This document shows, one piece after another, positions 3,472 through 29,691 of a DNA stretch of 41,127 bases. Both the position numbers and the translations under genes were made by a program. Position 1 is the stretch's first letter; each line of letters opens with the position of its first letter. The notes beneath the pieces were generated by a model, which ran no database searches, was not told the DNA's origin, and saw nothing but the letters and a program-made list of their open reading frames with translations. Origin of the DNA: Nostoc sp. FACHB-280 (GTDB lineage: Bacteria > Cyanobacteriota > Cyanobacteriia > Cyanobacteriales > Nostocaceae); contig NZ_JACJSD010000057.1 of NCBI RefSeq assembly GCF_014697615.1, positions 1 through 41,127 of the forward strand. The letters run 5' to 3'.

Positions 3472-3717
3472 TCAAATGTTGTTTTCTAGCCAAGTTAGGA
3501 GATTATTTAGTTCTTGTTCCATTCCTGGCTTTTTACCATGATAAGCACTGCATAAAGTAGTTGGGCGTATACCAATTTCTGGAGCAACTTCTCTAAAAGT
3601 TCTATCTTTCATTTTTAAACGAACTTTTAAACCTAAAGATTCATCAACAGGTCTTGAAATAGGCTTGTATTCTTTTGTAAATCTTACTTTCTTTCCTGTT
3701 AAATCCATATTAATCAA
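3472..3717 (-). CDS. Small putative DNA-binding protein, 81 aa (possible antitoxin)
   Basis: Residues about 38-60 (TFREVAPEIGIRPTTLCSAYHGKK) have the spacing of a helix-turn-helix of the XRE type: helix, turn with Gly, recognition helix. The rest is basic, with a C-terminal helix (ELNNLLTWLENN). It starts 3 bases after the stop of the 105-aa gene on the same strand, so the two are one transcript. A two-gene unit of a small HTH protein and a small helical acidic protein fits toxin-antitoxin organisation, but neither belongs to a family I can name. It could also be a simple autorepressor. Confidence 0.6.
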   Translation of the reverse strand: MINMDLTGKKVRFTKEYKPISRPVDESLGLKVRLKMKDRTFREVAPEIGIRPTTLCSAYHGKKPGMEQELNNLLTWLENNI

Positions 3718-3720
3718 AAG

Positions 3721-4038
3721 TTAAATTTTGTCTTTGTAAGTAAATTCAGGTATTTTACTAGATGATTCCACAAAATAAGATAAACAAATTTTAATAGTTT
3801 CAATATCCTTTTTGAGTTGATTTCTTGTAGACTTTATTCGTGACAATGCAGCATACAAGTAAGTATCAATTGACTCTTGATCCGTTCCCTCTGCAAATTC
3901 TTCTTTTAAATCTTCTAGGTTTTCAATAGAAAAATCTAAATGACTTAGATGGCTACCAAAGTCATCTAAATAGTAAGATACCCTAGCTAAGGCTGCCCTA
4001 ATATCAGTGGCTATCGTTTCATCTATGCACATAATCAA
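3721..4038 (-). CDS. Helical acidic protein, 105 aa, partner of the 81-aa HTH gene
   Basis: Unrecognised. Predicted almost wholly alpha-helical, acidic in the middle (about residues 38-55) and Lys-rich near the C-terminus. Heptad-like spacing suggests coiled-coil packing. No catalytic motif, signal peptide or membrane segment. The first gene of the pair: its stop is 3 bases before the start of the 81-aa gene. A run of A/T-rich DNA with palindromes lies upstream (4233-4318) and could carry its control region. Confidence 0.6.
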   Translation of the reverse strand: MIMCIDETIATDIRAALARVSYYLDDFGSHLSHLDFSIENLEDLKEEFAEGTDQESIDTYLYAALSRIKSTRNQLKKDIETIKICLSYFVESSSKIPEFTYKDKI

Positions 4039-4663
4039 AAGTTAGATTTTATCACTTTTATTAATATAAGTATTTCCGGTTACAAGCTCGTGTTAACAGC
4101 TTGTATACTTATTCAATATATCACGTAAATTATCAACTTTTACTAGCTAGTTCTCACTTTTAAAAATGCCTAACTAAATAGATATTTAATTTTATCATTA
4201 TTACTTTATGGGTATTTCTAAAAATATATCTTAAGCGAACGCTTCAATGAGTGTCATTCGTCACATCAATACCAATATAGATAATCAACCGCACTACACG
4301 AAAGGGCTATTTCGTGTAATCCTGCCTCACAAAGATAAAAATCGTTCTGCACGTTAATTTACATCACCAGGTGCGTGTCTTTTATCAAACAGCGATCGCA
4401 CTCTTGTGTCTGTTACTATTGCCGTTCAGCTATTACCCTAAACAACTTGCCCCAAGAATTTCTCAAAAATGTTAGTCCAATTGGTTTGGCATTTAATCAC
4501 GATGAGCAGTCGTGTTGTTCCCCTTTCCTCGTTGCCGCTGTCGCTCAATTAGGGGTTGGGTATGGTTGAGAGATTACTTGTTGGTGTTTGAGACTAAGAT
4601 AATTTTGAACAGATCGCTAAGAGTTGAAAATTAAAGTCCAAGTTACAGTTTGGTAAGGTTGAG
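4039..4663. other. Intergenic region, A/T-rich with palindromes
   Basis: A 625-base gap between the divergent 105-aa gene (minus) and the hydrolase gene (plus). It holds a 12-base palindrome (AAGCGAACGCTT, 4233-4244), the 24-base inverted repeat at 4295-4318 and a HIP1 site near 4392. A 64-codon plus-strand frame at 4375-4569 has no supporting features. Probably contains the promoters of both flanking genes. Confidence 0.4.
4295..4318. repeat. Perfect 9-bp inverted repeat, 6-nt loop
   Basis: TACACGAAA at 4295-4303 and its exact complement TTTCGTGTA at 4310-4318, separated by GGGCTA. No T-run follows on either strand, so a regulatory site or RNA hairpin is more likely than a terminator. It lies between two divergent transcription units. 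Confidence 0.6.
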
Positions 4664-5500
4664 ATGAATCAAGCTGAACAATTGCAAGATCAGTATGTCA
4701 AAGTCGGCTCTGTAAATACCCGATATTGGCAAGCTGGAGATTCAGGTAGCACGGTCATTTTGCTTCATGGTGGTGGCGGTTACATTGAGTTGTGGAAGTA
4801 CAATATCCTTGAATTAGCCAAACATCATCGGGTTTATGCGTTTGATATGGTGGGTGCAGGTCGATCCGATAAACCCGATGCTGCTCATTACACCTTTGAC
4901 TTCATGGCTCTGTTCACGCGAGATTTCATGAAGGTTTTAGAGATACCCAAGGCAAATTTGATTGGAACTTCTGCCGGCGGTGGAGTCGCACTCACTTTAA
5001 CGTTGAACTTCCCACAATTAGTTGAGCGACTAATTCTGGTTGGCAGTGCGGGTCTAGGGAAAGAACTTAATTTTCTGCTTCGAGTTACCACAATTCCTGG
5101 TTTAGCTAAGTTGTTTAGTTCACCAAGTAAATCAGGTGTAGCGATGTTGTGTAAACAGGCAGTGTACGACTCAAAACTCATCACTGATGAAATTGTCGAA
5201 GAGTTTTATCAAATGGCAACGCTTCCTGGCGCAGCACAAGCAACATTAAATCTAGGTCGTTCAAACTTTAATATCTGGGGGCAATTCTATCACTCAATTG
5301 CTGACAAATTGCATACTATCGAGGTTCCGACCCTCATTATTTGGGGCAGACAAGATCCGATGGTTCCTGTAACCCATGCTCAGAATGCCGTTAAGATTAT
5401 TTCTCATGCTCAGTTGGAGATTATTGAAGAGTGCGGTCATTGGAGTCCGATTGAGCATCCACAAAAATTTAATCAGCTAGTTCTAGAGTTTCTATCGTGA
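4664..5500 (+). CDS. Alpha/beta-hydrolase fold protein, 278 aa
   Basis: A cytosolic serine hydrolase of the MhpC / C-C hydrolase and esterase group. The oxyanion region is LLHGGGG (about residues 33-39), the nucleophile elbow is G-T-S103-A-G, the acid is D231 (WGRQDPMVP) and the base is H259 (ECGHW), all in the expected order and spacing. There is no signal peptide and the length is typical. The substrate cannot be read from the sequence. AAGG lies about six bases before the ATG, supporting this start. It stands upstream of two recombinase genes on the same strand, with about 150 bases between; there is no sign that they share a function. Confidence 0.88.
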   Translation: MNQAEQLQDQYVKVGSVNTRYWQAGDSGSTVILLHGGGGYIELWKYNILELAKHHRVYAFDMVGAGRSDKPDAAHYTFDFMALFTRDFMKVLEIPKANLIGTSAGGGVALTLTLNFPQLVERLILVGSAGLGKELNFLLRVTTIPGLAKLFSSPSKSGVAMLCKQAVYDSKLITDEIVEEFYQMATLPGAAQATLNLGRSNFNIWGQFYHSIADKLHTIEVPTLIIWGRQDPMVPVTHAQNAVKIISHAQLEIIEECGHWSPIEHPQKFNQLVLEFLS

Positions 5501-5648
5501 TTTTTGAATTGGTTCACGGTTGCCAGCTTGATACTCACACCCCGTACCCAAAGTACCAAAGTATGACTGTACCTGCTTGTTTGGCTGTAGATTACTTATC
5601 AAAATATAACTGTGCGGAATATAATTTTCTAGAAGATTTAGATCCGCA

Positions 5649-6569
5649 ATGTCTACCAACTCTTTTACTTCATTGGTTTTGACGAGTACGCCACCTTTGA
5701 TCCAACACCCGGCAATTATTTATCTCTCGACACTAAGTCCGGGATCGAAACCGACAATGAAGCACTCGCTCAACCTGATTGCTCAATTGCTCACAGATCA
5801 TCAAGCTGACCATTTGACTTTGAATTGGTCAGGATTGCGCTACAAACACACCCATGCTCTTCGCACCGCACTCATCCAAAAGTACGAGCCAGCAACAGTT
5901 AACCGAATACTATGCGCCTTAAGGGGCGTTTTGAAACAAGCTCTACACTCCGAGCTGATTAACCCGATTGATTATGCCCGTGCTGTTGACATCAAGAATG
6001 TCAAAGTATCAAAAGAATTAAGCGGAAGGGTGCTTAGTCAAGATGAGCTTGATGCTTTAATGCAGACTTGCTTTAGCGATCTCACCCCAGCAGGTTTTAG
6101 AGACGCTGCACTCATCGCTTTCCTTCGCGGTGCTGGTCTGCGACGGAGTGAAGTGGTTGGTCTGGAGCTAAAAGATTTTTATCATTCTGGAGACATCAAA
6201 CTCCACTCCAGTCACCCAAGAGTTGATCGGATTGTTTATTTATCTCCAAGCGCGATCGCTATCGTTAATGATTGGATTGAAATCCGAACTCGCACACCCG
6301 GCCCCTTGCTATGTCAAGTCAATAAATCTGGGCGTGTAGTTCACAAACGGCTTACGCCCCAGGCAGTGTTATTTATTTTACACAAACGGGGTGAACAAGC
6401 TGGTATCAAACCATTCTCGCCTCACGATCTGCGGCATACGTTCATTTGGGATTTGTTAAATGCTGGTGTTGATATTGTAACTGTACAGAGTTTAGCTGGA
6501 CTTTCAACCCCTGCTCTCACTGCACGCTATGGCTTTGCCGCCCCACAAACAACACAAGCCGTCAGCTGA
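5649..6569 (+). CDS. Tyrosine recombinase family protein with degenerate active site, 306 aa
   Basis: Full-length member of the phage-integrase/XerD fold: an N-terminal core-binding domain (HPAIIYLSTLSPGSKPTM, residues 20-37) and a catalytic domain from about 125. R165 (GAGLRRSEV), H259-x2-R262 (SPHDLRHTF) and Y294 (TARYGF) are present. The beta-hairpin lysine, usually in a GKGNKER-like motif, is replaced by SSHPRVDR (about residues 187-194), and the second His of the usual LxGH motif is L285 (SLAGLSTP). Two of six catalytic positions are therefore changed. It may be a decaying integrase, a DNA-binding-only regulator, or an unusual active variant. A second recombinase follows 36 bases downstream on the same strand. 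Confidence 0.85.
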   Translation: MSTNSFTSLVLTSTPPLIQHPAIIYLSTLSPGSKPTMKHSLNLIAQLLTDHQADHLTLNWSGLRYKHTHALRTALIQKYEPATVNRILCALRGVLKQALHSELINPIDYARAVDIKNVKVSKELSGRVLSQDELDALMQTCFSDLTPAGFRDAALIAFLRGAGLRRSEVVGLELKDFYHSGDIKLHSSHPRVDRIVYLSPSAIAIVNDWIEIRTRTPGPLLCQVNKSGRVVHKRLTPQAVLFILHKRGEQAGIKPFSPHDLRHTFIWDLLNAGVDIVTVQSLAGLSTPALTARYGFAAPQTTQAVS

Positions 6570-6605
6570 TAGGATGATTAACTATCGGAGGTAATCATCA
6601 ACGGC

Positions 6606-7253
6606 GTGAAAATCGACCGACACGGCAAGGCCAAAATCCTCACCCCAGAAGAAATTGAGGGTTTATTTACAAAAGGGTTGGTGACAGCGCGAGACAAAAC
6701 CCTCGTCGCCGTAATGCTGTACACCGCTTGTCGTGTTAATGAAGCAGTTACCCTCAAAATTAAAGATGTTTATGACAGTAAAAAACGAGTCAGATCGGAG
6801 TTGATTTTCCGCAAAGGTAACACAAAAGGAAAATTAGCAACCCGGACGATACCAGTCCTGGAAGATTTAAGACAATTTTTGGAACAGTACAAACCAACCA
6901 ACTCCCAAGACGGTTTTTTATTTCCCGGTCGATGGGGGCGTGGCCACTTGCACTCGGAATATGCAAGTCTGATTTTCAGGGAAGCTTGCTGGCGAGTAAA
7001 CATTGAAGGAGCCAGCACTCACAGTTGCCGCCGCACGGCACTTACTTTAATGAGTAATGCTGGAATCCCGTTGCGCGTGATTCAAGAAATTAGCGGACAC
7101 CGAAATTTGGAGCAATTGCAAAACTACCTGGAGGTTGAAATATCCCAAGTACGGGGTGCGATCGCTGCATTATCGATGCTGACACCCCCAAAAGAAGGCA
7201 GTAGCAAATTTAACTGTACTGAGTGGGAGAATCCGAAACTGACCACCGAGTGA
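6606..7253 (+). CDS. Short tyrosine recombinase, catalytic domain only, 215 aa
   Basis: Lacks the N-terminal core-binding domain but keeps a complete active site: R43 (TACRVNEA), K70 or K76 in the beta hairpin (FRKGNTKGK), H139-x2-R142 (STHSCRRTA), H165 (ISGHRN) and Y174 (LQNYL). Core-only integrases of this type occur in cyanobacteria and phages. The start is GTG at 6606; GGAGGT is at 6587-6592, 13 bases upstream, somewhat far. It follows the degenerate recombinase by 36 bases and probably shares its transcript, so the degenerate one could supply DNA binding while this one supplies catalysis (inference). A strong hairpin follows the stop. Confidence 0.85.
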   Translation: MKIDRHGKAKILTPEEIEGLFTKGLVTARDKTLVAVMLYTACRVNEAVTLKIKDVYDSKKRVRSELIFRKGNTKGKLATRTIPVLEDLRQFLEQYKPTNSQDGFLFPGRWGRGHLHSEYASLIFREACWRVNIEGASTHSCRRTALTLMSNAGIPLRVIQEISGHRNLEQLQNYLEVEISQVRGAIAALSMLTPPKEGSSKFNCTEWENPKLTTE

Positions 7254-11255: not shown

Positions 11256-12737
11256 TCAAGATGCGATCGCCATTTGTTGCGATGAATGTACCAGTCCTTG
11301 GGGGTCTTTCAAGATATACTTTTTAACTGCTGGTTGAAGCGTAAAATTTATTATCTTGGAGTTTGGGTCATTAAAAGTTTCAATTAATGAAAGTTTTTCA
11401 AGCGTTTCTAAAGCCAAAATTAATTCAGAGGTTGATATATATGTTTGAAGTTTCCGCTTGAGTTCGTTTAATAAATTATTAAAGTTAGTCCATTGTGAAC
11501 CAACAGCTATTTCTTCTGCCAGATAAATCATGATTTGTCGTTGAAGCTCGTTTAACAAGTAACCAAAACTTTGATCAAGCATTGCTTGAAGTTGACTACT
11601 AAAAAGTGTGGTTTTATTTTCAAGGAATTTTTCTGTGCTTCCGCCAAAGAAATGATTAATTCGATTAGCAACTGTTTTTAATTCTAAAGGATTGCCATAG
11701 TATATTTGAACTAACTCGCTGCATTTTTCTTCATTTTCTAATCCTTGAGAATATAAAAACTGTAATGCTGAGTTGGCATCTAAACCCTTTATTTTTAAAT
11801 AGCTAACAGGACGGCCTGCTACTACTAAATCTTCAAGGTCATCAGGGAATACTCGATGAGTTAATAGTAAACAGCTATGGTTAACTTCCTCGATAACGCG
11901 ACGGAAAAATAGTTTATATTCTAGCTTTTGCTCCAAATTGTTTATATTAAACAATGAATCAGATTCATCTAATATCAGCAAGCAACGGTGGGCTTGCATG
12001 TAGCTGATCAGCATCGAAACTGTTGCCTTAGTAAATTGAGCTAAAGCTGGTTCACTTTCTGATGAGTATATGAGTGTTAATAATTCGTTTACAAAATCTT
12101 GAAACGATGGTGTATGTGCAACTGATTTCCAGATTATGTAATCAAAACTATGTCGGTGTTCTGCATTAATTTCTTGTATTAACTTTGCAGCTAGTGCTGT
12201 TTTACCAATGCCTGCTGCCCCTATTAGTGATACGCAACGATGCTTCGCTATCAATTTTTTTAAAGTAGATAACTCTTCTGTGCGGCCATAAAAATTAGAT
12301 ATATCAGGGGGTTGACCTCCTAGTAGCTTTATCAAATTCTCTGTAGAGGGTTTTAGCCCTTCTATTGCTGTATATTTGGCAGACTGACCATGATGCCTTT
12401 GTACGGCTTGCTCTAAAAAATTCCGCACATTTTTTTTATTAACTCGTTGGCCATATCCAATTGTTTTTGTAAGAATCTCCCACAATCTAGTAGCTACGCC
12501 CCGTTGTAGGTAATTGATGCTATATGGTGAATCCTCTGCTATCTCTACAAATTCACGGTTGTTCCACGATCCTCTCATAATAAGTATCTCTGGCTCAGAC
12601 AAGCTTTTACCTCTTGTGTGACCCACTAAATCATCGACCACAGCTAAAGCTTCATCAAAAGTTGGCATAGCGTGTCTTCCAGATTGCGAAATGATAGAAG
12701 CTTGCACATTTAGGGCTTGTAGGGTGTTGGAATCCAT
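11256..12737 (-). CDS. STAND NTPase with N-terminal vMAP-type HTH and NB-ARC domain, about 493 aa
   Basis: Residues about 24-115 (MPTFDEALAVVDDLV to KKNVRNFLEQ) match the helical domain found at the start of many cyanobacterial NB-ARC and CHAT proteins (vWA-MoxR-associated type). The NB-ARC ATPase follows: Walker A GAAGIGKTA (about 173-181), Walker B CLLILDE (about 252-258), a sensor-like LLLTHR, then a winged-helix region to about 480. No TPR, WD40 or LRR sensor is attached, so it may sense through its C-terminus or a partner. Three starts are possible: TTG at 12767, ATG at 12737 (used here) and ATG at 12668, which has GGAAG seven bases upstream and fits the usual domain start. It is divergent from the Ser/Thr kinase gene. 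Confidence 0.82.
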   Translation of the reverse strand: MDSNTLQALNVQASIISQSGRHAMPTFDEALAVVDDLVGHTRGKSLSEPEILIMRGSWNNREFVEIAEDSPYSINYLQRGVATRLWEILTKTIGYGQRVNKKNVRNFLEQAVQRHHGQSAKYTAIEGLKPSTENLIKLLGGQPPDISNFYGRTEELSTLKKLIAKHRCVSLIGAAGIGKTALAAKLIQEINAEHRHSFDYIIWKSVAHTPSFQDFVNELLTLIYSSESEPALAQFTKATVSMLISYMQAHRCLLILDESDSLFNINNLEQKLEYKLFFRRVIEEVNHSCLLLTHRVFPDDLEDLVVAGRPVSYLKIKGLDANSALQFLYSQGLENEEKCSELVQIYYGNPLELKTVANRINHFFGGSTEKFLENKTTLFSSQLQAMLDQSFGYLLNELQRQIMIYLAEEIAVGSQWTNFNNLLNELKRKLQTYISTSELILALETLEKLSLIETFNDPNSKIINFTLQPAVKKYILKDPQGLVHSSQQMAIAS

Positions 12738-13088
12738 AGCGACACTTGTTCTCTTCTTTTGTTTCAAGTAGCCTCTGAGGTATTATCCGATGATCAAGTC
12801 TGATCTTACTTGATTTATCTAGTTATTAACAGCTGTTTCTTTCAAAAAGAATACTTCAAGTCACAAAGTATGCCAAAAGAAAGAGTAAGTTAGTCTAACA
12901 GGTTTGAGGGCTTATTGATAATATTCTCAATAAACTTTAGTTATAGACTCAAGCTAAGTTATATAATATACTTTAATCATAGGAAAAATACTGGAGCATA
13001 GTTAAAGTATTATGCTCGTAATTCTCAGCAACGATAAGAAGTGCTAGATTTATGGTGAGCATTTTATTTTCGGCTATTTTCTGCAAAT
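12738..13088. other. Divergent promoter region between STAND ATPase and kinase genes
   Basis: About 350 A/T-rich bases with no gene. A TATAAT hexamer on the plus strand at 12962-12967 is about 125 bases before the kinase GTG and is a possible -10 element; no good -35 is visible. Shared regulation of the two divergent genes is possible. Confidence 0.35.
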
Positions 13089-14954
13089 GTGACTTATTGC
13101 ATTAATCCCCTGTGCGGCAAGCAGCGTCAAAATCCTGACGAAGTAGAACACTGTCTCTCTTGTGGTACTTCACTCCTGATTAATGAGCGTATTCGCCTGA
13201 TTAAGCCATTAAGAGAACTGAATGAGAATCCATTCAGCTATACAGAAGTGTTTGAGGTGGATGATGCTGGTAATCAGTGGAATCCTGTCCGCAAGCGAAG
13301 AATTATGAAAATTTTAAAATCCGACTCACCTAAATTAGTTGAATTAATCGAGAGAGAATCTCTTGGTTTACGGTTGATTCATCATCCAAATATTCCTAAA
13401 AGTACCTTAGATGATTTTTTTACTTTTGTCCCTAATCGAAGCTCATTAACCTTGCATTGCTTGGTAATGGACAGAATAGAGGGACAAGATTTAGATAAAT
13501 GGATAAAATCAAACGGGTCTATTTCACAATCTACTGCACTAGAATGGCTTAAGCAGTTAGTTGAAATCCTTGATACGGTACACAAAACTAATTTTTTTCA
13601 TCGAGATATTAAACCTTCTAATATAGTCCTTCAGCCAAATGGTCAACTAGCATTAATTGATTTTGGTACTGTACGAAGAGTGACTGATACTTATTTAGCA
13701 AAAATAGGTGGAAGCGGAGGAGCTAACACTTCTAGAGGTGGGAAGTATGAAATCACATCTCTTGGTACGCCTCGTTACTCTCCACCAGAACAGGCTGATG
13801 GACAAGCATTACCTCAGTCAGATTTTTATGCTTTAGGACGAACATTTGTCCATATTATTACGGCAACTCAACTAACTGATTTACCTACAGATAAGCAAAC
13901 GGGAAGACTTATTTGGAGAGATAAAGCACCTCAAATCGACAAACCGTTTGCTGATTTTATTGATGAACTGATGGCTCCCTTTCCTGGGCAGCGTCCGCCA
14001 TCTACGCAAGTAATATTACAAAGATTAGAACGTCTGCCACTACAAACAAAGATCAATCGAATAATTAAATCAAAATTATTTAGAATGAGTGTGATTGCTA
14101 TATTTGTCCCAACTGTTTTGGGTTTATATAATGTATCACGTCCAGCGATTGCAGATTATTTGGTAAATGAAGGAAGGAAAGCACAACAAGAAAATAGGTT
14201 TGAAGATGCTCAGAACAAATTTCGTCAAGCAATTAGCATAGAGCCTTCCACGGCAAATTCAATATCGAAGTTTTATGTTGAGCAGGGAAATCAGCGTAAT
14301 CTTAATCCTGAAGATGCCAGAAAATATTATGAATTAGCTATTAAATTTAATCCTAAGAATGATACTGCTTATAATAATTTAGGGTTGTTATGTCAACAAT
14401 TACATGATTTCCAGTGTGTTAATAATAGTTATGCGGCTGTCTTTAAATTGAAACCTCATAAATGGGAATCGCACTATGGTTTGGGAAACTTTTATGATGA
14501 TTTGGGTCAGTATGATTTAGCAAAAAAACAATATAAATTAGCTATAGAAAGCAGCAATTTAGCTTTGGATGCTGTTAGTAATTTGGCAAGAATAAAAATT
14601 TTGCAAGGCGAATATAATGAAGCTATTAATACAGCTTTGCAAGGATTAAAAAAAGCAAAAGAAGATAAACTAAAGGCAGCTTTATATAAAAGCATAGGTT
14701 GGGCAAAGTTAGAACAGCATAAATATGATGAAGCTAAAAGGTATTTACAAAAAGCACTAGAATTGGATGGTCAAAGGACGGATACTTATTGTTTATTGGC
14801 GAAAACGCAAGAAGCGTTAGAAAATTTTGATAAAGCTTGGGATTGGTGGGAACCTTGTATATTACTAGATTCAAAGTTGCCAGAAGTTATCCAATGGAGA
14901 GTCACAATTTTAGAAAGAATAAAAATACTGAAGAGCTACAAACAAAAAACTTAG
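13089..14954 (+). CDS. Ser/Thr protein kinase with zinc ribbon, TM helix and TPRs, 621 aa
   Basis: Eukaryotic-type (Hanks) kinase. A zinc ribbon opens the protein (C4, C9, C22, C25). The kinase domain spans about 35-315: probable lysine K74 (RRIMKIL), H171-R-D173-IKPSN catalytic loop, D191-F-G, and the activation-loop end GTPRYSPPEQADG. The glycine-rich loop is not recognisable (LRELNENPFSYTEVFEV), which is unusual. A membrane helix lies at about 333-349, followed by TPR repeats (about 355-610) that should sit outside the cytoplasm. The start is GTG without a clear Shine-Dalgarno, but the zinc-ribbon start fits the family. The secreted TPR gene follows within 50 bases on the same strand and is probably co-transcribed. 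Confidence 0.9.
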   Translation: MTYCINPLCGKQRQNPDEVEHCLSCGTSLLINERIRLIKPLRELNENPFSYTEVFEVDDAGNQWNPVRKRRIMKILKSDSPKLVELIERESLGLRLIHHPNIPKSTLDDFFTFVPNRSSLTLHCLVMDRIEGQDLDKWIKSNGSISQSTALEWLKQLVEILDTVHKTNFFHRDIKPSNIVLQPNGQLALIDFGTVRRVTDTYLAKIGGSGGANTSRGGKYEITSLGTPRYSPPEQADGQALPQSDFYALGRTFVHIITATQLTDLPTDKQTGRLIWRDKAPQIDKPFADFIDELMAPFPGQRPPSTQVILQRLERLPLQTKINRIIKSKLFRMSVIAIFVPTVLGLYNVSRPAIADYLVNEGRKAQQENRFEDAQNKFRQAISIEPSTANSISKFYVEQGNQRNLNPEDARKYYELAIKFNPKNDTAYNNLGLLCQQLHDFQCVNNSYAAVFKLKPHKWESHYGLGNFYDDLGQYDLAKKQYKLAIESSNLALDAVSNLARIKILQGEYNEAINTALQGLKKAKEDKLKAALYKSIGWAKLEQHKYDEAKRYLQKALELDGQRTDTYCLLAKTQEALENFDKAWDWWEPCILLDSKLPEVIQWRVTILERIKILKSYKQKT

Positions 14955-15000
14955 ATTGATTTGTATTATTCTTAAAGTTGTAGGTCTTTGTGAAGCTTTT

Positions 15001-15990
15001 ATGCTTAAATTTAAAAGATTTATCACCATAGTGTCGGGGGTGACAATAATTCCTTTTTTAAATTGGAATGGTGCATGGAGTCGAACCCAACCATTAGTAA
15101 CAATGGGTAGTTGTATTAGACCTATTGGAAGAATTATTTACCTTGGTAGGAGTAGCCAAATTTGTAAAGATGAACAGATTAACATAGCGAATAATGCTAT
15201 GCTTATATGCTACCTTAGTAAAAAAATTGTAACACTTCATGCGGGAGTTTACAAAACAAATTCGGTATGTAATTCACTTCAAACTGATACAGTGCAGCGA
15301 TGTACTCTTATAACTCCAGAAACCTGTCCTAACAGGAAAGGGCCAAATGAAGACAACGAAAATGCTCCAAAGATAGTTCAGCCTTACGGGAAAATTGTGA
15401 TAAACAATCGACCTTTAATATCTTGGATTGCCGTTCCCGGAGCTACTAGTTACATTGTGCAAGTTAAGAGTCATTACGTAAATTGGGTAAAACAAGTCAA
15501 TGGCACTAGCCTGAGCTACCCGCCAGAGCAAGAAAAATTGCATTATGGCAGTGCATTTAAAATTGTTGTCATAGCAAATAAAGGTGATTCTCCTATTAGT
15601 GCAGATACTTTAGTTGTTCACCTATTACCTGAGCGTGAAGTTACACAAATCAACCAAACAGTACAGCAAGTGGCTTCTTTGGGTTTACCTCCAGATGAAG
15701 TATTGCTAGATTTGGATACAATTTATATGTCTCAAGGATTATTAAATAAAGCGATTGAGACTTTACAAGGACAGATAGAAAAAGGTAGTCAAGACCCAGC
15801 TTTGTATAGAATTTTGGGCGATCGTTATGTAGATGCGTGGTTGCCTCAAGAAGCTGTGAATGCGTACAAAAAGGCACTGGAATTAGCGACAGTTCAAGGT
15901 AAAAAAGATGAGCAGGTCATCGCTCAAGCCCGTTTAAGATTGCTGAATCCTCAAAGCCAACTTCCCACAAGAATGAATGCAGCCCAATAA
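15001..15990 (+). CDS. Secreted protein with Ig-like domain and TPRs, 329 aa
   Basis: I chose ATG 15001 because it opens a good signal peptide (MLKFKRFITIVSGVTIIPFL); the frame stays open to a TTG at 14956. The N-terminal half has several cysteines and no known fold. The middle (about 140-205) has the WxxVPGATSYIVQV pattern of an Ig/fibronectin-like or carbohydrate-binding beta-sandwich. The C-terminal third contains TPR-like helices (TIYMSQGLLNKAIETL, DAWLPQEAVNAYKKAL). It begins 46 bases after the kinase and ends overlapping the 3' end of the convergent CHAT gene by 40 bases. An extracytoplasmic partner of the kinase's TPR tail is a reasonable inference. Confidence 0.75.
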   Translation: MLKFKRFITIVSGVTIIPFLNWNGAWSRTQPLVTMGSCIRPIGRIIYLGRSSQICKDEQINIANNAMLICYLSKKIVTLHAGVYKTNSVCNSLQTDTVQRCTLITPETCPNRKGPNEDNENAPKIVQPYGKIVINNRPLISWIAVPGATSYIVQVKSHYVNWVKQVNGTSLSYPPEQEKLHYGSAFKIVVIANKGDSPISADTLVVHLLPEREVTQINQTVQQVASLGLPPDEVLLDLDTIYMSQGLLNKAIETLQGQIEKGSQDPALYRILGDRYVDAWLPQEAVNAYKKALELATVQGKKDEQVIAQARLRLLNPQSQLPTRMNAAQ

Positions 15991-18446
15991 TAGGGATGAT
16001 GATATTGAGGATCGGAAAGCAGGCTAAGTTGAGCTTGTCGTAGAGATTCTGCTTTTATCAGGTTGTGGTTTACGCTCCGATAGAACTTTTCGGCAAGCAT
16101 AGCTGTAGATGTAGAATCTACTAACCATAAGCTGGCAATTACACTTCGTGCGCCAGCTTGTACGGCTATTCCTGTAATTCCTAAAGTTGATCGCTTGTTT
16201 CCTTTAGCAGTTTGACAAGCACTTAATATTAGTAACTCAATTGGATCTTGGTTTTGTTGAGCTTTTAACCAGCCGTCAAGCTCTCGGATGCTGATGGGTT
16301 TGTCCCAAGCCAGTAGAATTGTACGCTCAGGATCGGAGCTAAATTGTCCGTGAGTAGTGATATGAACTACAGGAAAAACACCTCTATTTAATTCTCGTTT
16401 AAAACGCTGACTTGTAAATTTTTCGTTGAGCATAACAGATGAATTTATTTGCTTATTGATGCTTGCTATTTCCTGCTCAACTTCCGGTAAAGGTTTTATG
16501 TTTTCAGGAACGTTTGTGGCATTGAAGCTAGGGCTAATCTTAGACAATCCAGCAATGAGGGCTTTTCTTTGTTGTTCACTTAAAATTTTGGGAGGTCTAA
16601 TTTGAGAACCTAAAGTCGTAGTAATACTGTACTGCTTGATTAAGTAATCTTTGCCATCATGCAGTAAACTCATCGGTATACTTTGAAATGATTTATCAAG
16701 AGTAAAAACTAGGGTTCCAGATGGTGGTAGATATTTTTTAATAGGTTTAATTAGCTGATTATAAATTATCTGAGAATGAGAAATAAGTACGGATTCTTGA
16801 GTATTATAAAAGTTATTATCTTGTAGAGCTTCTAATAAACTTTCGACAGAATCTCTTATTAAATTTGGATTGACAGAGTAGTGATGTAGTGACTGGTCAG
16901 GTGATTGGGTAATTACTTCTATACTACTTTCTAAATCAATCACATGAATGACAGTATAATTATTTAATTTTTGAATTTTGTTTAAAGCAATTAGTTCCAA
17001 TTTACCACATTTAAGAAAATTCTCTAGTTCTGCTATTTGAAATTGTTCGTTAGTTTGGATAGCATTCTTCAAATCAGAATTAGCTATCAATAACTTCAAG
17101 TAATCTCGATAAATAGGATCTACTGTTTCATAAAATGAGTACTGTAAGTCTATGTTCGTTGATAAAAGGTCATTCCGAACTCTTTGAAGATTTGTAACTG
17201 CGGCTTTGTACATTTCGAGAGCTTTATCCTGTTTACTCTGCTTCTTGTACAAAGCTCCTAATTGTCCTTGCCATTGGTAAGCTAAATCCCATGCTCGAAT
17301 TTGTTGAGCCTGATTTAAAGCTTTCTCGAAGTAGGATCGAGCCTTATCCGAATCATTCTGCAATTTACCTAGTATACCTAAACTCTCCGATTCTAATCTT
17401 TGATTATTCATATCTTGAGCTACTTTCAAGGCTGATTTAGCATACTGAATTGCCACAGTATGCAGATCATTATCTGGGATTTGACTCAAACTATTAGCAA
17501 AATTGAGTTTAGTATAGACGAATTGGCTAGGAGATAGTTCAGAAAATAAAGAAGAAATTTTTAATGTTGAATTTATTGACTGCTGGATTTGTTTCTCAGT
17601 TTTAGATTGTTGTTCAGCAAAATTTACTAATGAAGTGGATACTATTTTTAGCCATTGTTTAAAATCTATAAGTAGGCTTAACTGATAAACTTGAGAGTGC
17701 ATTATTGATTCAAATGAACTATTTGAATCTTTGATAATTTGTTGATAAATGCCAATTGTTTCTAAAGCTTTTTGATTGATTGTATTAACTATTTTTTGCT
17801 GATAGATAGGTTCTTCTATATCAGTGTATCTATCTTTTAATCGCTTATATTTGTACCTTTTTGTATTAGCTAATGATAGCAAAATTTTAGTGATTTCATT
17901 AGAAGATGTTTGTTTAGCTAGTAGAATTATTTTTTGTAATATAATTTCAGATTCATCAAGTTTACCTAACTGGCGTAAAACATTTCCTAAATTATGTATT
18001 CCTAATAAGTAAATAGGTGGCTTAGATTGCTGATCGAGTATTTTTGCTAATGAATTTTCTATCAATTCATCTGATTGTTCTGATGAAGGATTACACAGCC
18101 AATCATCTGATTTGATTTTAAAAGCTAGTAAAAGTGTTGTACAAGCTTGAGAATTTAAACCTAAAGCTTGCAATGCTAAATTTTGATTTATGAGGCTTCC
18201 TGTGACTCCTTCATCATAATTTAGTTGTTGATAAATCTTTGTAGCCTCTTTAAAATAATCAAGAGCTTCTATTGGATTAGCCAATCTTAATTGCTCATTA
18301 CCTTTTTTAGTTAATAATTGTGCTTGTGTACGCTGTACATCTCTGCTAATAGCAACATTTGCAATTACAAATGGTTGGTTTACAAAAAGAAAAAAGCCAA
18401 TAAGTATTAGTAGAAAATATTTGGTGAAGTGACGATATCTAATCAT
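15951..18446 (-). CDS. CHAT-domain caspase-like protease with TPRs and signal sequence, 831 aa
   Basis: Residues about 10-30 form a hydrophobic signal or anchor (YFLLILIGFFLFVNQPFVIA), so the protein is probably exported. TPR-like helices fill about 35-450. The C-terminal CHAT domain (about 560-831) has the Cys-His dyad of clan CD proteases: H699 in HITTHGQF and C744 in ILSACQTA, followed by GLxxAF-like GITGIAVQAGARSVIASLW. CHAT/TPR proteins are proteases in several bacterial conflict and death systems. It is the last gene of an operon: it starts 4 bases after the adhesin stop. Its 3' end overlaps the convergent secreted TPR gene by 40 bases. Confidence 0.9.
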   Translation of the reverse strand: MIRYRHFTKYFLLILIGFFLFVNQPFVIANVAISRDVQRTQAQLLTKKGNEQLRLANPIEALDYFKEATKIYQQLNYDEGVTGSLINQNLALQALGLNSQACTTLLLAFKIKSDDWLCNPSSEQSDELIENSLAKILDQQSKPPIYLLGIHNLGNVLRQLGKLDESEIILQKIILLAKQTSSNEITKILLSLANTKRYKYKRLKDRYTDIEEPIYQQKIVNTINQKALETIGIYQQIIKDSNSSFESIMHSQVYQLSLLIDFKQWLKIVSTSLVNFAEQQSKTEKQIQQSINSTLKISSLFSELSPSQFVYTKLNFANSLSQIPDNDLHTVAIQYAKSALKVAQDMNNQRLESESLGILGKLQNDSDKARSYFEKALNQAQQIRAWDLAYQWQGQLGALYKKQSKQDKALEMYKAAVTNLQRVRNDLLSTNIDLQYSFYETVDPIYRDYLKLLIANSDLKNAIQTNEQFQIAELENFLKCGKLELIALNKIQKLNNYTVIHVIDLESSIEVITQSPDQSLHHYSVNPNLIRDSVESLLEALQDNNFYNTQESVLISHSQIIYNQLIKPIKKYLPPSGTLVFTLDKSFQSIPMSLLHDGKDYLIKQYSITTTLGSQIRPPKILSEQQRKALIAGLSKISPSFNATNVPENIKPLPEVEQEIASINKQINSSVMLNEKFTSQRFKRELNRGVFPVVHITTHGQFSSDPERTILLAWDKPISIRELDGWLKAQQNQDPIELLILSACQTAKGNKRSTLGITGIAVQAGARSVIASLWLVDSTSTAMLAEKFYRSVNHNLIKAESLRQAQLSLLSDPQYHHPYYWAAFILVGSWL

Positions 18447-18450
18447 TTAC

Positions 18451-20874
18451 CTAGTTCTCTACACTGGGTTTAGAAGAACAAGAATGCCTAGATAAATAAG
18501 CTTGGGCATTGATAATACTTGATGTTTTGGTTAATGTGACTGTCCCGTCAGAGTTAAATTGCCAGCCTTGTGCGGGAATCATAGCAATTTCTTGGGGGGA
18601 AGACTTCAATAAATCGTAACTAGTTGTTGTTTGAGTAGTGGTGGAGTTATCCTGCCAACTGAGATCGGTTGGAATATCGTTAAATCCTTGTGGTAATCCA
18701 CCTGTACCAGTAATTACAAATCTATTCTCTGTATCTCCTCGCCCTTGACATACTGACGCGATTTTTGGGTTTTGTTTTGGAGGCTCTGGTGTTCTGTTGG
18801 TGGTTTCTAGTTGGTTTCGGGAAGCATTTATCTCCACAGCCCCGCTAATTCCTCGCTTAGAACTTGCTGTGATTATGCTGTTATGAGAAAAGAATAGTCC
18901 TTGGATATTAATTCTGATATTGCCGCCTCTACCCTCAAAAGCATTGGCAGTAATGCTGCTGTTGTTGAAGCCAGTAATAACATCAGCATTGATGATGATG
19001 TTGCCGCCGTTGCCATTCGTACCTTGTTGACCTGCGGTAGCAGATATAGTGCCGTTGTTTAGTTGAAGAATGTTTGACTCAATGCCGATATTTCCTCCTT
19101 CGGCGATCGCGGTAGTGGCTGTAATGCCTCCATTGTTAGTAATGTTGATTCTGTTTGCAGCAATATTGATGTTCCCAGCATTGCCAGAACCGTCGTTTTG
19201 AACATTAACTAGACTACCATTACTTATATTTAAATTTGGAGTGTTAATGGTTACATCACCAGAGTTCCCAGTTGGAAAAGAAGGAACTCTGAGTTGTTGT
19301 TGCAATGGTTGAGCTAGAACAATAGCTGACGAATCAACTAGAGAAGGAGTTATTGAACCTAGTCCTACACCGTCAATTACTACAAAGTCAGAAGCGTTGA
19401 TAGTTACGCTTCCAGCATTACCAGAGGCGGTAGTGGAAGAAGCAACTGCTCCTCCATTTTCCAGACGTAATCTTGAGGAATTTATTACTACTTGTCCTGC
19501 ATTACCATTGCTAAAAGTTGCGGCGTTAATCGTGCTAGGAGTTAAAAATCCCGGCACAACCCCAATCAGAGTAACGTCAGAACTGTTGATGGTAACATTT
19601 CCTCCAGAACCGTTACCGAAAGTAGCAGAGCCTATTTGAATTCCATTAATTCCAACTAATTGATTTGTGGTAACAGTCAAATTACCTGCATCTCCAGTAC
19701 CAAAAGTTGCAGCACTAATGTTGCTGAAGAGGTTAGGATAAAGAATTGAGAATCCAATGACCTGCATTGACTCAGAAGCATTAATTATTGAATTGCCGCC
19801 TCTTCCACTGCCGAAAGCTCTAGGAAGTATTTGCCCTCCGTCTTGAACGATAATTCTTTTAGCGGCAACGTTAATATCTCCACCACTACCGTTGTTTAAG
19901 GTTTCTGTTAGCAAGGTGCTGGCAATTCTACCATCTGGGGCTGTACCAGATACTTTCAGCAGGTCAGAAGCGTTTACATTGATTCCACCTGATGATTGCC
20001 CTCCTTGATTTTGAATGAAAATTGCCGAGCCATCACTTATGTCTATTGTCTGTCCTTGTACCTGAATAGAACCAGTAAGACTGCCACTAGCATCCACTAA
20101 AGCTTGACGTGATAACTCAATATCCTGAAAATTTTGTATACCTTGGTAATTTAAATCCCAATCTGAAGCAAGAGTAACCAATCCACTCCCAACACTTCCA
20201 ATTTCAATACGTCCAGCCTTTAAAATTCCCCCATCTAAAACCACCTTATTTCCCACAAGTGCTAAGTTTTTTCCTGGTCGCAATTGTAATCCTGATAAAT
20301 TATTAAGCCCTAAGATTGGGGTAAATATTGGATTGATAAGAGTATGTCCATTTCCTTGTACTTTTATTGCACCAGAATTATTCTCAAAGCTCAAGCCAAT
20401 AGGTGCGCTGATCGTTAACAAAGGAGTATTTTGCAATGCAGTAGTAGTGAAAAAAGTACCATCATTAAATTTAAGCGCATTAGCAGTGGTAGCTAAAAAC
20501 GAACCACCAATATTTAGTCGTGCATTCTGACCAAATATAATTCCATTTGTGTTAATCAGAAATAAATTAGCATTTCCATTAGCTGCGATTAAACCGTTGA
20601 TATTAGAAACTTTTCCCCCTGTAACACGAGTGATTATATTTTCAATATTTAAGCTGTTATTAAAAAAAACTGTGCTTTTATTTTTAACAGAAAACTCTTG
20701 AAAACTATGAAACAGATTAGTACCTCGTGTAGCTCCTCCAGAAATTGTATTAATTTTATCGTTTTGTCTAACAATAGAATTCTCAATTCCTAATGTAGAA
20801 TCTGGAATAATTTGAGCTAATACTGGGCTACTGGTTAAACAGCTTAAAATATAAAAAACTAATACTTTTTTCAT
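18451..20874 (-). CDS. Two-partner-secretion filamentous hemagglutinin-type adhesin, 807 aa
   Basis: Signal peptide (MKKVLVFYILSCLTSSPVLA) followed by a TPS domain: residues about 22-150 contain the family motifs NGLIAANGNANLFLINTNG and IIFGQNARLNIGGSFLATTA. The rest is a beta-helix of short repeats with the rhythm GNAGxVxINAS and NGSGGNVTIN. A C-terminal segment (SVCQGRG, ITGTGGLP, TDLSWQD) is typical of cyanobacterial members. Such proteins are exported by an Omp85-type TpsB pore, but no TpsB gene lies in this window. It starts 3 bases after the radical SAM stop and ends 4 bases before the CHAT start. Surface adhesin or contact-dependent effector are both possible; I see no toxin domain. 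Confidence 0.9.
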   Translation of the reverse strand: MKKVLVFYILSCLTSSPVLAQIIPDSTLGIENSIVRQNDKINTISGGATRGTNLFHSFQEFSVKNKSTVFFNNSLNIENIITRVTGGKVSNINGLIAANGNANLFLINTNGIIFGQNARLNIGGSFLATTANALKFNDGTFFTTTALQNTPLLTISAPIGLSFENNSGAIKVQGNGHTLINPIFTPILGLNNLSGLQLRPGKNLALVGNKVVLDGGILKAGRIEIGSVGSGLVTLASDWDLNYQGIQNFQDIELSRQALVDASGSLTGSIQVQGQTIDISDGSAIFIQNQGGQSSGGINVNASDLLKVSGTAPDGRIASTLLTETLNNGSGGDINVAAKRIIVQDGGQILPRAFGSGRGGNSIINASESMQVIGFSILYPNLFSNISAATFGTGDAGNLTVTTNQLVGINGIQIGSATFGNGSGGNVTINSSDVTLIGVVPGFLTPSTINAATFSNGNAGQVVINSSRLRLENGGAVASSTTASGNAGSVTINASDFVVIDGVGLGSITPSLVDSSAIVLAQPLQQQLRVPSFPTGNSGDVTINTPNLNISNGSLVNVQNDGSGNAGNINIAANRINITNNGGITATTAIAEGGNIGIESNILQLNNGTISATAGQQGTNGNGGNIIINADVITGFNNSSITANAFEGRGGNIRINIQGLFFSHNSIITASSKRGISGAVEINASRNQLETTNRTPEPPKQNPKIASVCQGRGDTENRFVITGTGGLPQGFNDIPTDLSWQDNSTTTQTTTSYDLLKSSPQEIAMIPAQGWQFNSDGTVTLTKTSSIINAQAYLSRHSCSSKPSVEN

Positions 20875-20877
20875 AGA

Positions 20878-21927
20878 TCAGCCAAAAGTTGCTTGCAGAA
20901 TTCCCAAAATAGTTGGGATATCTAGACTGTCAATTCCTTGTGCTAACCCCGTAATATTGCATACACAAGTTTCACAATCAATTTCATCTCTCAAAACACA
21001 TTTGCCTACATTCTTACCTTCAAAATTCAGGCTTTCAACTCGCCTAGCTACCGAGCAAGCGGACGAATCGTGAATAATATATTTTTCATCAAATAAGAAT
21101 TCATTAACTTTTGGCTGGTTAAATGGAAATAGCTCCCATCCATACTTTTGAGCGCAAAATTCAATCAAACCTTTGAGCTTTTGCCTATCTTGAATTTGAA
21201 GTGTAACAGGGTCATCTTTATCTTTAGTGGCTGCGCCAGAAACAACAATACCTCGCAACTTGTTGACATCTTTTACTAGCCAATCAACAGCATCAACAAA
21301 GTATTCTATTGATTGCCGTGTGAGAGTTATGTGTACATAAGCTCCACGCTCTGATTCATTAATATTTTTGACAATGGACGCAGCCATTCCTGTTAAAGTT
21401 CCGTAACGGCTTTTAGCAAAAAAACCTAAAGGATCTCTGGATTTATTATGGTATTCAGGAGTACCGTCAATACTGACAAAAACAACAGATGAATTAGGAA
21501 GATTAGGAAGTTTAGCTACACCATTAGTAACGACCCAGACCACAGGAAATAGCTCGGCGGCTCGCTGTATTGCTTTTGGAGCTAGTGCTGTTTCCCCTCC
21601 TACGACTGTGACGTGGACAATGCCTTGCTTGTGAAGTTTTTCTAAAGTTTCAAAAACTTGTTTTTCTTTTTGGTGATGCTCTTTTGAAGATAATTGTAAA
21701 TACCCTTGTATACGTTTATTTTGATCCCAATCAGAATGATAAACGTAGCAATAATGACATCCAGCATTACAGCGATCTGTAACTTCTACAGAAGCAGCAA
21801 ACTTAGTTCTAGTTTGCAGAAGTAAATGTGAAGCAACGGTAGAAGTAGCAGTTAGAATAGCACTCAATCTCTCAAATCTTTCAGATAAAGTATATGGTGG
21901 TTTATAGGGAGAAAAGTAATTGCTCAT
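20878..21927 (-). CDS. Radical SAM enzyme, 349 aa
   Basis: The 4Fe-4S-binding motif is C53-x3-C57-x2-C60 (DRCNAGCHYC), followed by the conserved VVGGETAL (GGE motif) and strands of the partial TIM barrel (VVWVVTNG, VVFVSIDG). The C-terminus has a second cysteine group (CSVARR, CVLRDEIDCETCVC), which could bind an auxiliary cluster as in SPASM-type or HpnH-like enzymes. Substrate unknown. It is the first gene of the rSAM-adhesin-CHAT operon, separated by 3 bases from the adhesin, so a modification of the adhesin, its anchor or a cell-envelope lipid is worth considering (inference). I saw no small precursor-peptide gene next to it. Confidence 0.88.
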   Translation of the reverse strand: MSNYFSPYKPPYTLSERFERLSAILTATSTVASHLLLQTRTKFAASVEVTDRCNAGCHYCYVYHSDWDQNKRIQGYLQLSSKEHHQKEKQVFETLEKLHKQGIVHVTVVGGETALAPKAIQRAAELFPVVWVVTNGVAKLPNLPNSSVVFVSIDGTPEYHNKSRDPLGFFAKSRYGTLTGMAASIVKNINESERGAYVHITLTRQSIEYFVDAVDWLVKDVNKLRGIVVSGAATKDKDDPVTLQIQDRQKLKGLIEFCAQKYGWELFPFNQPKVNEFLFDEKYIIHDSSACSVARRVESLNFEGKNVGKCVLRDEIDCETCVCNITGLAQGIDSLDIPTILGILQATFG

Positions 21928-28570: not shown

Positions 28571-29620
28571 ATGGAAGAGAAATTGGAATACAGTTCTGGC
28601 ATGAACATTCCTAAACCCACTCAAAAATTCACCATAGAGCGAAGTCTGGTGACACTTTATCTGGGAGCAGGCACAAAGATTGAACTTTCGACCGACCCAA
28701 ACTATTTATATATTCAACAGCCTGAGAATAATAGCTGTGCTGCCTTAAATTCACTCAAAGCAATTGTGACAATCGAGCCAGTAGCAATTGAGCCACAAGC
28801 ATTATCTAAAATCATAAATTATCAAATTCCCATTGTGATATTTTCACAAACTGGCTCCTTTATGGGAAAGATTGCTGGGGCAAGCTCAATCAAGGAGAAA
28901 ATTGACATTGCCCAAGCCAACATGAACCAGGAAATGAAGTTAAAGATAATGCAGCCCTCTGTGTGGGGAAACCTGCGGCGATGCCGTCGTTATCTGATGC
29001 GTTCGCGTGGTGAATCTAATAGTGCTGTTGATATTGCCTGTGAGCAGATGGAACAACTTATCAATCGAGTTTATCAACAAGAAACTATTACTGCACTTAT
29101 AGAAACCTTTCAACAAGGACAACAACTGTACTACAGTGCTTTTGGGCATTTGCTCAAACATGAGTGGGGTTTAAAATGCCATGAACCAAATTCCGTTGTC
29201 AGCAGGATGTTAGATTTTAGCTATAAATTGCTAGAAGAATCGGTAAAAATAGCAGTTGAAAATGTCGGACTAAACCCCACAATCGGATTTTGGCACACGA
29301 ATCAGTATCAACAACAAGCCTTGATTGCAGATTTAGCGAATGAGTTTAAGCTCTACAGCGATCGCGTGGTAGTCAAAGTATTAAATAAACAAGCGATTGT
29401 GAAGGAAGATTTTGATAAACATGGAGATAAACCAGGATTACCACTTTCTGTAGTTCATCTACTCCTCTACTCATATATGCAAAAAATGAACGAGCGAGTT
29501 ACCTATCCAGGGGCAAAAATCAAATGCTCTTATGAACAACTTTTGTGCTTGCAAGCTAAACAAATTGCTATGGTGTTATGTGGTGAAATTAGTGATTACT
29601 ATTCGCCTGATTTGCGTTAA
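28571..29620 (+). CDS. cas1: Cas1-family integrase with altered active site, 349 aa
   Basis: The C-terminal domain is clearly Cas1: YYSAFGHLLKHEWG (187-200), the helix around MLDFSYKLLEESVKIAV, then GLNPTIGFWHTNQY with H242, and LIADLANEF with D254. The N-terminal beta domain (TLYLGAGTKIEL, IPIVIFSQTG) is also typical. The third metal ligand, a Glu in the usual EG-x-x-A-x-x-YF motif, is missing: the aligned stretch reads FQQGQQLYY (180-188). Cas1 normally works with Cas2 to insert spacers; no cas2, cas4 or effector gene is nearby. It converges on the trailer end of the CRISPR array. The start could also be ATG 28601; neither has a good ribosome site. Confidence 0.85.
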   Translation: MEEKLEYSSGMNIPKPTQKFTIERSLVTLYLGAGTKIELSTDPNYLYIQQPENNSCAALNSLKAIVTIEPVAIEPQALSKIINYQIPIVIFSQTGSFMGKIAGASSIKEKIDIAQANMNQEMKLKIMQPSVWGNLRRCRRYLMRSRGESNSAVDIACEQMEQLINRVYQQETITALIETFQQGQQLYYSAFGHLLKHEWGLKCHEPNSVVSRMLDFSYKLLEESVKIAVENVGLNPTIGFWHTNQYQQQALIADLANEFKLYSDRVVVKVLNKQAIVKEDFDKHGDKPGLPLSVVHLLLYSYMQKMNERVTYPGAKIKCSYEQLLCLQAKQIAMVLCGEISDYYSPDLR

Positions 29621-29691
29621 ATAGTCCATAAATAAACTAGAGAATTAATATTCATGAGTGCCAGTCAATATTTAAAATCTGAAAAGTGAAA

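Follow-up and report, generated by a model that had tools for sequence, protein, structure and literature searches.

What joins a radical S-adenosylmethionine (SAM) enzyme to a surface adhesin, a caspase-like protease, and a pair of signaling proteins? This question is raised by a locus of Nostoc sp. FACHB-280 on contig NZ_JACJSD010000057.1, the whole 41,127 bases of which were studied and are called the window. Its six genes encode a STAND nucleoside triphosphatase (NTPase), a zinc-ribbon Ser/Thr kinase, a secreted tetratricopeptide repeat (TPR) protein (secTPR), a TPR-CHAT protease, a two-partner secretion (TPS) exoprotein, and a radical SAM enzyme (rSAM). A first-pass annotation had proposed a system for contact sensing or conflict in which rSAM modifies a component. 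The genes do belong together as a surface-signaling unit, but in the majority of core copies a different gene stands where the window has rSAM. From sequence comparisons we propose, at a probability of roughly 0.45, that the locus is a conserved plasmid-borne surface-signaling module with an exchangeable enzyme slot beside TPS, likeliest serving plasmid-type recognition.

Core gene order and its plasmid setting

The core of the module reads STAND / kinase> secTPR> <CHAT <TPS, counted without regard to other genes lying in between. Across 96 locus pieces, this order is complete in 77, partial in 16 (12 of which lose TPS to a contig end), rearranged in one, and without the secTPR end in two. It is likewise complete in 18 of 20 held-out loci and cut short in the other two; five of these 18 have a TpsB-type gene between CHAT and TPS. 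Loci without rSAM were first found by a search for CHAT plus TPS, in 16 genomes, where the core stands with a different gene beside TPS (GNAT twice). The first ten such loci (L112–L121) were selected for closeness of TPS and CHAT, 80 further loci were drawn from the secTPR matches listed, mostly the best-ranked with some rows skipped, and the held-out loci were picked by hand from the remaining rows, favoring genomes with other copies. Of 217 Nostocaceae genomes, 101 match the secTPR profile, with as many as nine matches in one; the best match reaches E ≤ 1e-80 in 72 of them, whereas the weaker best matches of the other 29 might represent different paralogues.

A replication (rep) gene lies beyond STAND in 73 loci and was not found in three with at least 2 kb of flank. 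A further 16 flanks were too short to judge, a short-flank locus being counted solely when its rep gene was visible, which biases the survey slightly toward linkage. The 73 comprise 68 genes of the CyRepA1 type and five of the DUF3987 type found in the window, and a rep gene also adjoins the module in 15 of the 20 held-out loci. According to passages of PMC9978351, CyRepA1 has been shown experimentally to be a replication initiator in Synechocystis. On named plasmids, the replication gene adjoining the module is annotated as CyRepA1 family. The same module order is present on the annotated plasmid A of the laboratory strain Trichormus variabilis ATCC 29413, where the slot gene is of the VOC type, and, distant in the tree, on Acaryochloris marina pREC1, where a P450 occupies the slot; Nostoc UHCC 0926 pn2 is a further annotated example. 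In PLSDB, 37 records carry a CyRepA1 that is at least 60% identical, and 30 of these have secTPR 4.4–6.8 kb from it. A few copies of the module reside on chromosome-sized contigs (8.2 and 5.5 Mb).

The window itself looks like part of a plasmid because it encodes tyrosine recombinases, DnaB, a DUF3987 protein, DNA polymerase IV, Cas1, and a C5 methylase; its two ends show no overlap indicative of circularity. At the level of open reading frames (ORFs), the six genes, the gaps of 3 and 4 bases, and the 40-base convergent overlap described in the first-pass annotation are all present (Table 1). Pfam agrees with that annotation; for the STAND protein, NACHT (51 bits) outscores NB-ARC (44 bits). 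The kinase scores 88 bits against Pkinase.

Table 1. Genes of the module and its flanks in the window
Feature	Position	Strand	Basis and remarks
rep-like flank gene, DUF3987, 1085 aa	7334–10591	-	Pfam DUF3987; occupies the site of CyRepA1 at other loci
STAND NTPase, NACHT/NB-ARC type, exchange block 1	11256–12767	-	Pfam
Zinc-ribbon Ser/Thr kinase (STK), C-terminal TPRs, exchange block 1	13089–14954	+	Pfam
Secreted Cys-rich FN3-TPR protein (secTPR), 344 aa, exchange block 2	14956–15990	+	Homologues, structure model
TPR-CHAT caspase-like protease, N-terminal signal-like segment, exchange block 2	15951–18446	-	Pfam, homologues
TPS (TpsA-type) exoprotein, exchange block 3	18451–20874	-	Pfam; residues ~181–540 track slot class
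Slot gene, radical SAM enzyme (rSAM), exchange block 3	20878–21927	-	Pfam, motif
w22865, 318 aa	22865–23821	+	No Pfam match; far side of slot, recurrent across loci

CHAT and the kinase retain their active-site residues. The CHAT protein belongs to its family at 193.5 bits, and its His699/Cys744 dyad is kept in 72 of 72 full-length homologues. The catalytic Lys, HRD, Lys, and Asp of the kinase, together with four N-terminal zinc-ribbon Cys, are present in 91 of 91 homologues. By a simple, crude hydropathy scan, 50 of 72 CHAT proteins have a hydrophobic segment ahead of residue 40, 82 of 94 secTPR proteins have one at the N-terminus, and 89 of 91 kinases have one at residues 300–380, although none in the kinase of the window exceeds the cut-off. 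Given these signal-like segments, both CHAT and secTPR would act outside the cytoplasm. The window secTPR has no Pfam match at E ≤ 0.001 and only sub-threshold TPR matches; in its structure model, TPR helices accompany a beta domain and a second domain that is FN3-like, with the FN3-TPR end resembling the C-terminal domain of MtxA. Its true start is probably near 15001, as homologues begin ~15 codons past the annotated TTG. No usable Pfam match was obtained for the N-terminal domain of STAND. The exoprotein is TpsA-type by its N-terminal TPS domain (202 bits), the sole domain that Pfam finds in it. As for TpsB transporters, a cluster of 21 ORFs at other loci includes one Pfam-tested member, which is ShlB/FhaC, and POTRA/ShlB genes are present at L118 and L120.

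Several features of the surroundings vary between loci. STAND is divergent from the kinase and secTPR genes in 49 loci and co-directional in 43, and STAND and kinase form two types that track this orientation (area under the curve (AUC) 0.86 and 0.78). A TpsB-type gene (ShlB or a member of the same cluster) lies between CHAT and TPS in L237, L250, L251, L253, L254, L118, and L120, and four of these seven loci have a rubrerythrin-like slot gene. Homologues of w22865 recur at the far side of the slot. Between the two, many loci encode a cluster K1 protein of ~235 aa with hydrophobic stretches (for example, L226 16425–17132, minus strand); K1 proteins have no Pfam match at E ≤ 0.001. Elsewhere in the window, three tyrosine-recombinase genes lie within 6 kb (1450–7253), two of them adjacent. 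At 28571–30314, the Cas1 gene is followed by nine CRISPR-DR5 repeats, and no other cas gene was recognized among the 20 ORFs scanned with Pfam.

The slot and its radical SAM occupant

We took as the slot gene whichever gene of 110 aa or more comes first beyond TPS and classified it in 80 loci with TPS. A recognized enzyme or lipid-binding class fills the slot in 70 loci and some other gene in six, and four have none or reach the contig end. The classes are methyltransferases of three families (17), GNAT (10), PAP-fibrillin (7), glycosyltransferase-like (6), radical SAM (5), P450 (5), DUF3598 (3), FAD monooxygenase (3), TauD (3), and seven smaller classes (11 loci); 52 of the 70 genes share the strand of TPS. 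Families were named by Pfam on representatives, and clusters K10, K42, K50, and K67 by eye from sequence; glycosyltransferase cluster K2 is a loose one whose members on the plus strand might belong to another family, while K13 has a weak FAD match only. Several slot families (P450, TauD, FAD monooxygenases, macrolide-type glycosyltransferases, and lipid-binding proteins) are encountered more typically in the chemistry of small molecules, which makes a matched ligand no less possible than modification of a protein. Classified modules that reside in one genome share a slot class in 0 of 28 pairs (expected 2.0, P = 0.12) and, with loci added, in 0 of 44 (expected 3.1, P = 0.03), an exclusion that we regard as suggestive, not established.

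The rSAM family is discrete, rare, and cyanobacterial: 97 proteins match at E ≤ 0.001, of which 96 do so at E ≤ 1.1e-98, followed by one distant protein. Matches at E ≤ 1e-30 occur in 8 of 217 Nostocaceae genomes, and in a sample of 388 genomes from across the class Cyanobacteriia, 10 have the family. The six-gene set of the window recurs with identical order in four further genomes, with STAND reversed in L018 and L041; this recurrence, despite the presence of rSAM in just 8 of 217 Nostocaceae genomes, indicates that the grouping is more than chance. TPS and CHAT follow rSAM in all five loci whose rSAM is at least 77% identical and free of internal stops (the window, L017, L018, L040, and L041), with secTPR, kinase, and STAND beyond CHAT and an rSAM–TPS gap of −8 to 33 bp. 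The rSAM gene of L018 leaves its contig, and its start is on another contig. At L040 (17148–19021, genome G534), two ORFs make up the kinase gene, and this copy is therefore possibly broken.

The association was seen with the close copies only. None of 12 rSAM homologues at 51–71% identity has TPS or CHAT neighbors in the visible stretch (cut downstream within 0.5 kb at L034 and L051), and two broken copies (L020 and L021) also lack them. The co-occurrence of rSAM with TPS and CHAT expected in the first-pass annotation thus holds for the five close copies and was not seen for the distant ones. rSAM was rejected as a core gene of the module on these distant homologues and on the many modules without it; it is a replaceable slot gene.

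The broken copies consist of 63 codons in genome G004 and, in G011, a gene 81% identical over residues 168–349 with an in-frame stop. On Nostoc HK-01 plasmid1 (L021/L022), the 63-codon rSAM remnant with its upstream region adjoins a w22865 homologue ~20 kb from a module with a GNAT slot. This remnant is likely a footprint of slot replacement. Stand-alone rSAM homologues at L048, L049, and L050 have common neighbors in related genomes, which suggests a role for the family outside the module. On named plasmids, the only matches to rSAM were the HK-01 remnant (18%) and a distant Anaerococcus radical SAM protein (23%), and a pattern scan found no relatives in viral contigs.

rSAM is a member of the radical SAM superfamily, with a Pfam score of 37.5 against a cut-off of 29.5 and a CxxxCxxC motif at C53/C57/C60 that is invariant in 20 of 20 sequences. 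A SPASM domain has seven Cys. The C-terminal region of rSAM contains five, three of them invariant and two nearly so, and the protein falls short of the SPASM/Twitch maturase cut-offs, the best scores being 43.5 of 340 for PapB and 36.5 of 300 for SkfB. SkfB is the nearest solved relative by sequence. The structure model gives weak fold matches to SuiB (the nearest, TM-score 0.49), TYW1, and viperin-like proteins.

Co-variation of neighboring genes

Pair statistics were computed on 61 of the 96 pieces, those with complete genes and a classified slot; removal of similar loci left 59 and 22. Among pairs with distant kinases (<70% identity), the median TPS identity is 0.57 for the same slot class vs 0.43 for different classes, corresponding to an AUC of 0.87. 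The equivalent values are 0.51 for STK, 0.55 for secTPR, 0.57 for CHAT, and 0.49 for STAND (83 same and 1586 different pairs). When slot labels are permuted, TPS has p = 0.0005 and CHAT p = 0.07. Across 60 loci, the nearest homologue has the same slot class for 46 TPS, 9 secTPR, 5 CHAT, and 4 STK proteins. In the strictly thinned set of 22 loci, with 16 and 215 pairs, the AUC is 0.95 for TPS vs 0.39–0.49 for STK, CHAT, and secTPR, with CHAT at 0.45.

The slot signal within TPS resides mostly in residues ~181–540. It peaks at residues 361–420 (AUC 0.90) and is 0.81 at residues 1–60; the C-terminus (residues 601–780) is conserved, with AUC values of 0.60–0.64. Residue composition of the TPS middle, compared by slot class, gave no clear modification signature, and no Cys is present there.

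Identity co-variation between genes was also compared without regard to slot class. Correlation is high within STAND–kinase and secTPR–CHAT (rho 0.72 for each) and low across the borders kinase–secTPR (0.31) and CHAT–TPS (0.38), a contrast that held in 300 of 300 bootstraps. The low CHAT–TPS value is found despite a median spacing of 4 bp. Rep and w22865 co-vary at rho 0.76 (few loci, no bootstrap), and either one correlates with the inner genes at 0.10–0.42. With high values inside pairs and low values at the borders, the module behaves as three exchangeable pairs (STAND with kinase, secTPR with CHAT, and TPS with the slot gene) within a plasmid backbone. The TPS gene and the slot gene thus appear to be swapped as a pair, although common descent of neighbors can explain part of the co-variation between genes.

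Proposed mechanism and competing explanations

In the mechanism that we envision, a TpsB would export the TPS protein to the cell surface. Before export, the slot enzyme (rSAM in the window) would modify the TPS protein in the cytoplasm, as HMW1C does HMW1; alternatively, it could make a ligand that the TPS protein binds. CHAT and secTPR would form a periplasmic protease/partner pair by which the TPS protein is read or processed. The kinase would have its TPRs outside the cell and its catalytic domain inside and would relay this state inward to its partner STAND, whose output would act on the plasmid or the cell. The likeliest use would be plasmid-type-specific recognition between cells or plasmids, whether to exclude, to recognize mates, or to provide a private identity tag. 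The gene pairings point to the proteins that may communicate; how events are ordered, what the slot enzyme does chemically, and what the output is are what we infer beyond them.

Several observations weigh against this proposal. The DUF3987 rep-like gene of the window is distant from CyRepA1, matching it only over the C-terminal 67–83 aa. Seven of the 37 CyRepA1 records in PLSDB (NZ_CP091915, AP018313, AP018209, NZ_CP050443, NZ_CP043058, NZ_CP043057, and AP025022) are without a listed secTPR, and in Fischerella AP018300, secTPR is far from rep. For this tally, the four named plasmid-linked CyRepA1 records ranked below the top 33 (H79, H84, H85, and H86) were scored as lacking secTPR by their absence from the organisms tallied with it, and NZ_CP091915 might belong to four secTPR records left off the tally list. 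A hydrophobic segment is found at the N-terminus of just 28 of 69 TPS proteins, and STAND is free of hydrophobic segments in only 66 of 87. No TpsB was recognized among the 20 scanned with Pfam of the 24 window ORFs of at least 200 aa. The PAP-fibrillin, DUF3598, DUF3386, and rubrerythrin slot classes are no obvious protein modifiers, and 18 of the 70 classified slot genes lie on the strand opposite to TPS. Slot exclusion within genomes reaches P = 0.03 solely after loci were added and is uncorrected for relatedness.

The co-variation is also less sharp in some subsets. In 26 loci with w22865, CHAT (AUC 0.77) and STK (0.71) track slot class in addition to TPS (1.00), with secTPR and w22865 at 0.64 (14 same-class pairs). 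Co-divergence with the slot gene within classes is not specific to TPS, with pooled rho values of 0.55 for TPS, 0.47 for CHAT, and 0.71 for w22865 (n = 26). Contrasts among the held-out loci have the same direction and are weaker (rho 0.67, 0.59, 0.69, and 0.49 along the module); the values for held-out against original loci are 0.74, 0.42, 0.70, and 0.56. TPS is present in 18 held-out loci, and a slot class was assigned in 12 of these; the nearest homologue matches in class for 5 of 11 TPS proteins and for 2 CHAT, 1 STK, and 0 secTPR proteins of 12. The co-variation of TPS with the slot could be plain co-inheritance of neighbors.

One competing explanation is an accessory hot spot, where TPS, CHAT, kinase, and STAND make up an adhesion or biofilm module of benefit to the host and the slot gene is unrelated, hitch-hiking cargo. 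The many unrelated slot families, the opposite-strand slot genes, and the non-specific co-divergence within classes all fit this explanation. We nevertheless consider it doubtful. w22865, across the slot from TPS, tracks slot class less than TPS does (0.64 vs 1.00 in the 26 loci), a comparison in which the greater conservation of w22865 leaves its AUC less range. Moreover, the TPS signal peaks in the middle of the protein and not at the slot-side end, and slot and TPS are near-contiguous in all five rSAM loci.

A more specific form of the recognition proposal, which we find rather doubtful, is a plasmid identity system in which each large cyanobacterial plasmid has a private surface protein matched to a private tailoring enzyme (for example, a radical SAM enzyme, a P450, or a methyltransferase), such that cells or incoming plasmids would be recognized when of the same type. 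The surface state would be read via the protease/partner pair and the kinase/STAND pair. Under such a system, co-resident plasmids must differ in type, and the lack of any shared slot class among the 44 co-resident pairs is consistent with this.

CHAT proteases, STAND proteins, and kinases act in bacterial immunity, and a rep-gene neighbor is unusual for defense islands. The first-pass annotation had suggested a contact-sensing or conflict system. Contact sensing remains plausible, whereas conflict or defense, in which surface contact or phage attack would trigger the kinase, STAND, and CHAT to kill the cell or a competitor, is unlikely. The protein classes, the conserved active-site residues, and a strong kinase match to the PADLOC PD-T4-6 models (1e-95) favor it, and passages of PMC10907252 describe CHAT as a defense effector. 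Beyond the kinase, however, PADLOC gives just weak STAND and viperin-like matches among the six genes, short of a full component set unless the kinase by itself constitutes the system. The conflict explanation is further weakened by the N-terminal signal-like segments of most CHAT and secTPR proteins, by a conserved TPS C-terminus that scarcely tracks slot class and bears no variable toxin tip, by the lack of a recognized immunity gene, and by the adjoining rep gene.

Control of replication or copy number, with the module sensing the cell surface and STAND regulating the neighboring rep, would suit the location beside rep and the position of STAND as the nearest core gene to it. This explanation is very unlikely: no STAND–Rep coupling was seen (rho 0.10, bootstrap −0.08 to 0.28), while Rep co-varies with w22865 on the far flank. 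Least probable by far is a pathway for a ribosomally synthesized and post-translationally modified peptide, with rSAM maturing a small precursor that the remaining genes sense; although the nearest profile relatives of rSAM are the peptide maturases SkfB and PapB and its nearest fold is SuiB, none of 107 small ORFs in the 950 bases upstream of rSAM in six genomes is common to all, those of G534 and G525 have no match elsewhere, the SPASM maturase cut-offs are missed widely, and unrelated genes replace rSAM at other loci.

How does the proposed recognition module compare with known systems? In FxSxx-COOH systems, a radical SAM enzyme is found together with NB-ARC/TPR proteins. Unlike these, the locus scores 26.0 of 370 with the FxsB model and 29.5 of 300 with FxSxx-TPR, and no common precursor peptide was found at rSAM loci. 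Contact-dependent inhibition by CdiA also differs, since the partner-tracking variation of TPS is N-terminal and central rather than in a variable C-terminal toxin, and no immunity gene was recognized. In passages of PMC5422565, TPS exoprotein genes are described beside enzymes that modify or might modify them (HMW1ABC and the CdiC acyltransferase of cdiBCAI), and maturation-protease genes are apparently outside TPS operons. The module likewise encodes its TPS protein next to an enzyme gene; in contrast, its enzyme family varies between plasmids, an adjoining tpsB is often unseen, and CHAT, kinase, secTPR, and STAND genes are added.

The module resembles the VMAP/ternary and STAND conflict systems of multicellular bacteria, as presented in passages of PMC7159879 and PMC10907252, in combining NTPases, caspase-like proteases, and kinases. 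It differs in the signal-like segments of its protease and TPR partner, in its mostly rep-linked location, and in its TPS adhesin and slot enzyme, and no vWA or MoxR Pfam match, as in the vWA-MoxR ternary systems, was found among 20 window ORFs. CyRepA1, the subject of PMC9978351, PMC10899382, and PMC10079941, adjoins the module at 68 loci and is so annotated on the named plasmids, whereas in the window this site has the DUF3987 protein with just a matching C-terminal tail; the words CHAT and hemagglutinin are absent from the main text of these papers. HetF also joins CHAT and TPR in heterocystous cyanobacteria; as described in passages of PMC8406250, it belongs to the divisome and its CHAT domain is at residues 1–555, whereas in the module CHAT is found at the C-terminus of a protein that begins with a signal-like segment and shares an operon with TPS. 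Titles, abstracts, and passages among the matches listed, outside subscription journals and bioRxiv, describe no such gene combination. Every part of the module is of a known kind; the assembly, its rep-side place, and its swappable slot were not found in the literature covered, and the module falls outside the systems considered.

How cyanobacterial plasmids coexist is an open question, according to passages of PMC10899382. A single Nostoc strain can harbor several large plasmids, and the varied enzyme genes that adjoin these adhesins may have a role in common. If the module is indeed a recognition system, it would give plasmids an identity code written in surface proteins and chemistry.

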